NCBI GenBank assembly: GCA_034620365.1 | Contig: JAQGEQ010000213.1 | Coordinates: forward strand, 868,001 to 932,000 | DNA length: 64,000 bases | DNA from: Pegea sp. RAD2-039 | Taxonomy: Eukaryota > Chordata > Thaliacea > Salpida > Salpidae | Direction: 5' to 3' | In this document: positions 17,596 to 62,383 of the stretch, piece after piece | Layout: each line of letters begins with the position of its first letter | How positions within the stretch are numbered: position 1 is the first letter of the stretch | Notes under the pieces: model-generated | Seen by the model: the letters and a program-made list of their open reading frames with translations, nothing else | The model's database searches: none | Told to the model about the DNA's origin: nothing | Made by a program: the position numbers and the translations under genes

Positions 17596-18262
17596 TCAAC
17601 CAAAGAGATCAAAACCCATATCATCATCGGATTCTTCTTCAGATTCTTCCTTCTTAGCTTCCTCTTTAGCTTCTATAATTCAATATAAAATTGAAAATTT
17701 TGAATTTAATACTATTTCTATAAATTGTCGCTATTAGTTTCTTTATAAACAATAAGCTGTTGATTTTCCTTCAGGTAAATCCGTTGAACAAAACCAGTGT
17801 TCACCGGGTAAGAATCATGAAGGAATAAATTGAGTAAAAACAAAATCTTACCTTCAGCAGGAGCATCAGTTGAAGCACCAGCGGCACTAGTTGCACCACC
17901 AGAGGGCACACTTGCCAATTTAGTGAGACCTAAGAGGAAATAGTCCAATGAGATTGTGACAAGAAACTAATTACTTAGTAAGTAAATGAGTTATCAGTTT
18001 TAAAAAATTGACATCATTGCATTCAGGCGAAAGATGGTAATTAAATCATCATTTTTATGCTTGTGAAATTAAATTAAAAGTTGTTCAAACCTTCAGCCAT
18101 CACTTCATCAACACTCTTGCCATCGAGTTGCTTGATGACCAAATTTAATTTGTCATCATCAGCATCGATTCCAACACTTGCAAGAATTTGTTTAATATCA
18201 TCACCAGATGGATTTGAGTTGCCACCAAGGGCAGCCAATAGGTAAGCTGCAACGTAACGCAT
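17596..18262 (-). CDS. RPLP2: 60S acidic ribosomal protein P2
   Basis: Three coding exons (18091-18262, 17852-17929, 17596-17672) total 327 bp, 108 residues, the usual P2 length. The N-terminus MRYVAAYLLAALGGNSNPS and the SVDEVMAEG segment are P2 hallmarks. A Gly/Ala/Ser hinge follows, and the acidic tail ends in the conserved DDDMGFDLFG that contacts elongation factors and ribosome-inactivating proteins. P2 pairs with P1 and binds P0 to form the stalk of the large subunit. A probable non-coding first exon lies at 18839-18891, with a splice acceptor (TTTCTAG|A) directly in front of the ATG. The introns appear to host C/D-box snoRNAs, as ribosomal-protein genes often do. Confidence 0.96.
17766..17825 (-). 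ncRNA. Possible third C/D-box snoRNA in RPLP2 intron 2
   Basis: On the minus strand a 5-bp perfect flanking stem (TTCCT at 17825-17821 with AGGAA at 17770-17766) brackets a C-like box ATGATTC (17818-17812) and a D box CTGA (17774-17771). The C box departs from RTGATGA at its last two positions and I recognise no rRNA target for the sequence before the D box (CAACGGATTTAC). The spacing fits a snoRNA; the weak C box keeps this tentative. Confidence 0.35.
17994..18056 (-). ncRNA. C/D-box snoRNA in RPLP2 intron 1, predicted 28S guide
   Basis: Minus strand: C box ATGATGA at 18052-18046, then TTTAATTACCATCTTTCGC, D' box CTGA at 18026-18023, C' box TGATGTC near 18016-18010, and D box CTGA at 17997-17994. 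The 11 bases ACCATCTTTCG just before D' are complementary to the conserved 28S rRNA stretch CGAAAGAUGGU. By the D+5 rule the target would be the second A of GAAAG, which I believe is the site served by human SNORD32/SNORD51 and yeast snR39. Its layout matches the snoRNA at 18318-18386 box for box. The outer stem is weak. Confidence 0.72.
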
Positions 18263-18317
18263 TCTAGAAAGAAAATATTTTTGATTATTGATAAATAATG
18301 ATTAGCAAATTTCTGTT

Positions 18318-18386
18318 TGCCTCAGATTCAAAGTTAACATCAAATTTTTCAGTCGAAAGATGGTGTTGAAAAAATCATCATTGGCA
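18318..18386 (-). ncRNA. C/D-box snoRNA in RPLP2 5'-UTR intron, predicted 28S guide
   Basis: Minus strand: outer stem TGCC (18386-18383) pairs with GGCA (18321-18318). Inside lie the C box ATGATGA (18381-18375), the D' box CTGA (18352-18349), the C' box TGATGTT (18342-18336) and the D box CTGA (18325-18322). The 12 bases CACCATCTTTCG one base before D' are a perfect complement of the 28S rRNA stretch CGAAAGAUGGUG. All canonical elements are present, so this is the strongest RNA gene in the window. It would be released from the spliced intron and guide 2'-O-methylation. Confidence 0.82.
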
Positions 18387-18838
18387 TTAAAAATTGGAGA
18401 ATAAATAGATTGTAATATATTACATAAAAATTGAAACTTCAAAACACGAAATAAAAACATTTAAATTATAAAAAAATTAAACAATAGGTAAACTTAGATG
18501 ATCTACATTGATGCTTAAGTTCGAAATTAATAAAAAGAATAATCTAATATTTTCATGACAACTACTGACATAATGTCGAAATGGAAAAAACCAGTGCTTA
18601 ACTAATTATTATATAAGTTAGTATAACTATTTAATTGAGACTAGATGAAAAGAAAAAAGTCACAATAACATTTATGCCCAAAGGAGATATAATTAAGTAA
18701 ACATATTTAAATAATACTAAATATCTATACAAAATATTGATTTAGAGCTTATGATTTACCCATACAGATTGGTAATATAAAAAAATCGAATAAATAGCAC
18801 ATTATCTAAACGAAACTATGTAAGAAATTAAAACTCAC

Positions 18839-24381: not shown

Positions 24382-33834
<9,453 letters not shown>

Positions 33835-51090: not shown

Positions 51091-52044
51091 TTATTTCGGT
51101 GAAGACTTCGACTTTGTCATAATTCGTAAAATATTTCTGGCAATTTCAGCCGCAGAACAATTTTGACCGAAATACTCGCAATAATCTCCCTTGTGATCTA
51201 CTAAATACATGATGATGGAATGATCAACTAAATAGTCGCCATCAACTTCATCCTTTGATCCCGCAGAGTAATAGACACGAAAAGATTTTGTAGCAACTTC
51301 TATTTGATCCCTAGATCCTGAGAGCCCAATAAAATCTTCCGAAAAGTCCTGAAAAATCAAAAGAGTCAGAATATTAAATAATTTGAATTAAAATTAAACC
51401 TTTAAATATTCTTTGATAACTTTTGGTGTGTCTCTTTCAGGATCAATAGTGATAAAGATCGGTTGAAGATCAGAAGAGTCACTCTTCCTATTAACAATCT
51501 CAACTGCTGTGATCATCTTTTCTAACTCCTCAGGACAAATATCAGGACAGTTTGTGAAACCGAAATAGATCAACAACCACTTGCCAATGAAATCTTTATT
51601 TGATCTCATCTCGCCATCTTGATCCATCAACTCAAAGTCACCTCCCAGCTTGGGACTTCCGTATGAGCGAATAAGGGCATCATCTATCGATTTCAATTTC
51701 TTCGCTTTGTAGTGTTTCATTAAAAGGATTCCAATTGAACCGAAGCAAGCCACAATCAGCAAACTTTTCCAATCAAATGGCATCCGGCTTCGATCCTTCT
51801 CTTTGTGTGGAGTTTTCAAAGTAGATTGATGCCTTTGTGGGGTTTGGTGGACAAGTGGTTTAGATGTGGAGCAGGTCTGGTACATAAGTGGTTTAGATGT
51901 GGACCATGTTTGGTGGACAAGTGGCTTAGATGTGGACCATGTTTGGTACATAAGTGGCTTAGATGTGGACCAGACTTTCCGGATGAGATGAGACTTTTCT
52001 TTAGAGGTAGATTTGAAGAATGGAAAAAGTTTTAAACACATCAT
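51091..52044 (-). CDS. SCO1: SCO1/SCO2-type cytochrome c oxidase copper chaperone
   Basis: Two exons (51400-52044 and 51091-51348) encode about 300 residues. The start is the ATG at 52044. A basic, Ser/Thr-rich N-terminus fits a mitochondrial presequence and includes four near-identical 11-residue repeats ([11 protein letters not shown] type). A single membrane helix follows ([16 protein letters not shown]). The thioredoxin-like domain has [20 protein letters not shown] with the copper-binding CPDIC, then [12 protein letters not shown], and in exon 2 the conserved [11 protein letters not shown], whose His is the third copper ligand. SCO proteins sit in the inner mitochondrial membrane facing the intermembrane space and deliver copper to the CuA site of COX2. 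SCO1 and SCO2 cannot be told apart here. It lies 92 bp downstream of AGA, same strand. Confidence 0.94.
51838..51970 (-). repeat. 33-bp coding tandem repeat in SCO leader
   Basis: Four units of 33 bp encode an 11-residue motif (W/C)STSKPL(VH/MY)QT. The VHQT and MYQT versions alternate, so the array is really two copies of a 66-bp higher-order unit. It is in frame and lies before the membrane helix. Confidence 0.92.
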
Positions 52045-52136
52045 CAATTTATTAAAACCTGTTCAAGAAAATTAAGTGATGAAAAAGAAATTAACAAATT
52101 TTTATGTAAAAAATTAAACGAATAAATTCAAAGTGT

Positions 52137-57234: not shown

Positions 57235-62383
<5,149 letters not shown>

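Follow-up and report, generated by a model that had tools for sequence, protein, structure and literature searches.

The window (the entire 64,000-nucleotide stretch of a Pegea sp. contig analyzed here) contains, on its minus strand, a gene whose spliced exons encode a 108-amino-acid protein, ribosomal protein P2 (RPLP2). The translation matches the Pfam family PF00428 (Ribosomal_60s; E = 5.1e-24) and the P2 chains of solved ribosomes in the PDB (best E = 6.8e-34). Judging from the sequence, exon 1 probably lies just upstream of intron 1, with its start close to a CCTCTTT tract around 18891. Near RPLP2, the window also contains exons of Prp8, encoding the PROCN and U5 snRNA-binding domains (26124-30060, plus strand), and an SCO1/SenC gene (51394-52047, minus strand). 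Searches beyond the window covered the genome assembly of 105.7 Mb in 387 contigs.

Introns 1 and 2 of RPLP2 each contain a candidate box C/D snoRNA gene (Table 1). The element in intron 1 (snoRNA 1), read from 18386 to 18318, consists of a TGCC stem strand, box C (ATGATGA), the guide CACCATCTTTCG, a single A, box D' (CTGA), box C' (TTGATGT), box D (CTGA), and the complementary stem strand GGCA. The element in intron 2 (snoRNA 2), read from 18056 to 17994, consists of box C (ATGATGA), the guide ACCATCTTTCG, a single C, box D' (CTGA), box C' (ATGATGT), and box D (CTGA). Thus, both elements have boxes C (RUGAUGA) and D (CUGA) near their ends, an exact internal D' box, a C' box containing TGATGT, and the common guide ACCATCTTTCG one base before D'. 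The first-pass annotation had proposed two intronic C/D candidates at these positions, with all four boxes at matching positions and a perfect 4-bp outer stem on the intron-1 copy. The sequence bears this out: the boxes are ordered and spaced correctly in both elements, and the TGCC/GGCA stem is found on the intron-1 copy only, compared to a single terminal base pair in the intron-2 copy. The distance from the D box to the last base of the intron is 58 nt in intron 1 and 64 nt in intron 2. Neither element folds better than shuffled sequence (123 and 125 of 200 shuffles, respectively, fold as well); C/D snoRNAs are not expected to be strongly structured.

Table 1 Features of the RPLP2 locus (window positions) and of two further loci with candidate guides
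Feature	Position	Strand	Target, length, or basis
Box C/D snoRNA 1 candidate (RPLP2 intron 1)	18318..18386	-	D' guide for 28S A999
Box C/D snoRNA 2 candidate (RPLP2 intron 2)	17994..18056	-	D' guide, same 28S A999
RPLP2 intron 1 (5' UTR intron, GT..AG)	18264..18838	-	575 nt
RPLP2 exon 2, start codon at 18262	18091..18263	-	Spliced translation, PF00428, PDB P2
RPLP2 intron 2 (GTTTGA..TTAG)	17930..18090	-	161 nt
RPLP2 exon 3	17852..17929	-	Spliced translation
RPLP2 exon 4 with stop codon	17596..17672	-	Spliced translation
RPL23 twin C/D candidates	L171 (G000:C47, about 755917-756282), guides L171:1501 and 1796		28S G997
A1009 guide and 18S A1602 guide candidates	L174 (G000:C115 around 105700)	-	

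A third C/D snoRNA, in RPLP2 intron 3 (box C at 17818, box D at 17774), was considered and rejected: the putative C box, ATGATTC, departs from the consensus at two positions, and the score of 13.5 is within the noise. The D-side guide of this candidate pairs with 18S A1504 through 12 pairs, including one G-U. Intron 3 also contains a hairpin (17835-17762, minus strand) with the arms TTCCTTCA and TGAAGGAA and a CTGA motif, whose folding is equaled by 3 of 200 shuffles.

To identify the target, the rDNA of this species was used; it was found on contig C27, where Rfam recognized the 18S, 5.8S, and 28S genes, and 28S positions are numbered here from Rfam's first 28S base. The 28S carries an intact complement of the guide, CCCGAAAGATGGTG. 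The D' guide of snoRNA 1 forms 12 Watson-Crick pairs with it and that of snoRNA 2 forms 13 pairs, including one G-U, and in both elements the fifth-base rule places A999 opposite the fifth base before D'. As in the U51/snR39 group, antisense of at least 10 nt at a D or D' box pairs with CGAAAGAUGG and the fifth base lies opposite the second A of GAAAG. Both the single shared site, at this second A, and the complementary 28S stretch had been predicted in the first-pass annotation, and both predictions hold for the 28S of this species. The D-side guides of the two elements gave only weak pairings, mostly A/T, and were rejected. A diverged partial 28S copy was also detected on another contig (L003; G000:C322:133384-134187; 369.7 bits, model positions 671-1449), in which the target reads CCCAAAATATGG; this copy resembles a fragment of rDNA or a pseudogene. 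The candidate guides in this genome address positions 997, 999, and 1009 (see below), with the same spacing as chicken positions 1457, 1459, and 1469 and human positions 1509, 1511, and 1521. By this sequence comparison, A999 corresponds to human Am1511, the site of U51/U32A and snR39/59, so the RPLP2 twins would fulfill the function of an ancient snoRNA from within a different host. The hosts of yeast snR39 and snR59 are RPL7A and RPL7B.

Human U51/U32A and chicken GGgCD35 address, as judged by spacing to neighboring guided sites, the same 28S nucleotide as the RPLP2 twins. In the available portions of the published guide tables, chicken 28S-A1459 is assigned to U51, U32A/B, snR39, and snR59 (PMC2653536), and U51/U32a (Am1511) and yeast snR39/snR59, which share this site, are among the snoRNAs whose ancestry is followed back to the last eukaryotic ancestor (PMC3511168). 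These tables group the human, chicken, and yeast guides, in agreement with the first-pass annotation, according to which human SNORD32/51 and yeast snR39 serve the same rRNA site. Because the tables cover the A999 site, its function and ancestry are already known. What differs is the arrangement: according to the same portions, chicken GGgCD35 has one isoform, in intron 3 of EEF1B2, and human U32A/B are double guiders (PMC2653536), whereas the RPLP2 elements are twins that lack a convincing D-side guide.

The best-scoring Rfam family for both elements is RF00535 (fly snoMe28S-Am982), to which they align over the full length with the guide and D' in register; the fly RNA carries its guide, CACCAUCUUUCG-A-CUGA, at the corresponding position. 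In a 1.4-kb search, snoRNA 1 scored 37.8 bits (E = 0.00018) and snoRNA 2 scored 31.4 bits (E = 0.0056), both below the gathering score of 49. At E values up to 10, the RPLP2 elements were first and third of the 15 matches listed for the genome (E = 0.003 and 0.1). Of 14 prokaryote genomes used as controls, 9 also gave weak matches at the same threshold, so that RF00535 scores alone prove little. Two of the other 13 listed matches, on contigs C381 (33.9 bits) and C5 (29.6 bits), lack the exact guide and were taken as chance. On the sequence comparison, the RPLP2 elements appear to work like RF00535 but are not filed as its members.

The elements were further evaluated with a snoscan-like scan of both window strands, in which a perfect C box, a D or D' box, and an rRNA duplex were required and reversed rRNA served as the decoy. 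The 87 perfect C boxes yielded 6 candidates with an rRNA duplex, headed by the RPLP2 twins (17.0 and 14.5); the remaining four scored 13.5 (C box at 58373, 18S A1219), 10.5, 10.0, and 9.0. The decoy gave one candidate (12.0), located on the D side of the same intron-1 element. When the C box was permitted as many as two mismatches, snoRNA 1 remained first among the real-target candidates, but snoRNA 2 was outscored by one further real-target candidate (15.0) and by one decoy (15.5). Genome-wide, the pattern ACCATCTTTCGNCTGA (guide, one base, and CTGA) occurs at exactly two places, both in RPLP2, compared to none for the backwards control. Looser spacing, N{0,4}, gives 5 places versus 5 in the control; therefore, only the exact layout stands out, and the other three places are background. 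The guide pattern occurs at least 155 times in the prokaryote and viral collections; one of the occurrences listed closely follows a C-box-like motif (L118) and was taken as background, and no relative of the RPLP2 protein was found in the viral contigs. It is very improbable that the elements are chance motifs with a coincidental guide complement. Such a reading could draw on the Rfam gathering scores, which no match reaches, and on the decoy and competing scores obtained when a poor C box is allowed, but it would have to account for a perfect C box, guide, and D' occurring twice in one gene, for the genome count of 2 against 0, and for the twins' place at the head of the perfect-C-box scan.

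A similar arrangement was found for a neighboring site. Two bases upstream of A999 lies the counterpart of chicken G1457, which the available part of the chicken survey lists as the snR39b site (PMC2653536) and whose human counterpart is given as Gm1509 (PMC3511168, also available in part); for this reason, a guide ending in CGGG was sought. The pattern ATCTTTCGGGN{0,1}CTGA occurs at exactly two places in the genome, 295 bases apart (control, 0), and these lie in two adjacent introns of RPL23 (Pfam Ribosomal_L14, E = 7.9e-39; solved L23, E = 6.5e-76). Both members of this pair are predicted to guide 28S G997, two bases from A999, through 13 and 11 pairs. With the guide layout CATCTTTCGGG-N-CTGA, they resemble the snR39B group (Gm1509), SNORD96, SNORD2, and ceN70, and their best Rfam matches are SNORD96 (37.9 bits) and ceN70 (34.2 bits), both below the gathering score. 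The distance from the D box to the 3' splice site is 66 to 67 nt, close to the RPLP2 values. In chicken, as far as the accessible text goes, the guide of the snR39B group is hosted by EIF4A2 (PMC2653536), as opposed to RPL23 here.

For A1009, the genome has a single guide, of the U80/snR60 type (one genome place; control, 0); for the chicken counterpart of this site, A1469, the available part of the published assignments names U77/80 and snR60. A second C/D candidate, about 0.85 kb away, pairs with 18S A1602 (12 pairs) and may be U82-like, given its distance from the 18S end when set against human numbering. This locus resembles a multi-snoRNA host gene, and no coding exon was evident by eye in its 3 kb. 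A U18-type guide, sought as GGTCCGTGTTTCN{0,2}CTGA, had no match in the genome; the pattern, modeled on the U18 site, could be incorrect, or this guide could have diverged. Pattern searches for four 28S sites thus gave twin guides for two, a single guide for one, and no match for the last (U18).

These findings are best explained, with a probability of about 0.93, by two predicted box C/D snoRNA genes in consecutive introns of RPLP2 that guide methylation of 28S A999, that is, equivalents of U51/U32A, snR39/snR59, and Am982 doubled in one host. The host is expected to be highly transcribed. Splicing and debranching, followed by exonuclease trimming that is halted at each assembled C/D RNP, would release two RNAs of about 60 to 70 nt from the RPLP2 introns. 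The segment of each RNA immediately before the D' box would pair with 28S CGAAAGAUGG(UG), and A999, which the sequence places opposite the fifth base before D', is the predicted substrate for 2'-O-methylation by fibrillarin.

It is unlikely that the intron-1 copy alone is functional and that intron 2 carries a relic that is decaying or poorly processed. The intron-2 copy has no terminal stem, has the lower Rfam score (31.4 versus 37.8), and sits in an intron whose 5' splice site, GTTTGA, departs from the consensus as commonly given. However, its boxes, guide, and D' spacing are all intact, and stemless C/D snoRNAs can use flanking intron pairing in place of a stem. Splice sites such as GTTTGA may, moreover, be normal in this genome because the RPL23 introns start with GTTAAA and GTTTGT. 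Selection on both copies is suggested by the intact boxes and guide, given that the spacers between them show no detectable similarity.

The origin of the doubling is less clear. The first-pass annotation had taken the twins for a within-gene duplication, which goes further than the comparison allows: outside the boxes and guide, 1776 of 2000 shuffles are as alike as the RPLP2 spacers (for the RPL23 twins, 1649 of 2000), and RPLP2 introns 1 and 2 share just two 11-mers, of which the first falls at the C box and the second in the guide. With spacer similarity at the level of shuffled sequence, duplication is no more than plausible. The same shuffles and the two 11-mers favor an independent origin of the RPLP2 twins, through separate captures or copies from elsewhere. 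We consider this somewhat unlikely, given that both copies are in one gene, that their exact layout occurs nowhere else in the genome, that RPL23 repeats the pattern for the neighboring site, and that short, AT-rich spacers would saturate fast. Furthermore, human C/D families with at least two expressed members mostly reside in a single host, with 59.5% having all members in one host according to the available part of the source (PMC8178906). Duplication within RPLP2 followed by saturation is a plausible and the simplest account.

The proposal that RPLP2 is a new host stands for C/D guides and not for snoRNAs in general: within the partial coverage of the literature searched, no C/D guide hosted by RPLP2 was met, and the gene appears there as a host only of an H/ACA snoRNA, ACA52, in chicken intron 2. 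RPL23 appears in the same partial coverage as the host of ACA21, in intron 3. In the portions of the papers available, 27 ribosomal-protein genes are reported to host snoRNAs in the fly (PMC2246290), and snoRNAs are described as mobile among broadly expressed genes (PMC3511168), so that a change of host is to be expected. Box C/D snoRNAs received new names in 2024 (PMC13228274). The novelty is modest: the kind of guide, its function, and the ancient site are known, and the paired placement in RPLP2 appears to be new within the literature covered.

One reading of the two pairs, which we regard as quite unlikely, is that this lineage keeps doubled guides in adjacent introns for G997 (RPL23) and A999 (RPLP2) because single copies undersupply the snoRNP, with the guides competing and a host-fixed ratio setting the balance of modification. 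If this were true, the crowded, overlapping target stretch would be the setting of the competition. With the candidates described here, RPLP2 joins the hosts of an ancient 28S guide, and two neighboring sites that each have twin guides in adjacent introns of different ribosomal-protein genes make a clean case. This arrangement fits the view, expressed in the available part of PMC3511168, of a constant rRNA site whose snoRNAs relocate from one broadly expressed host to another, and it may offer a natural system in which to ask whether the doubling of guides reflects dosage or drift.
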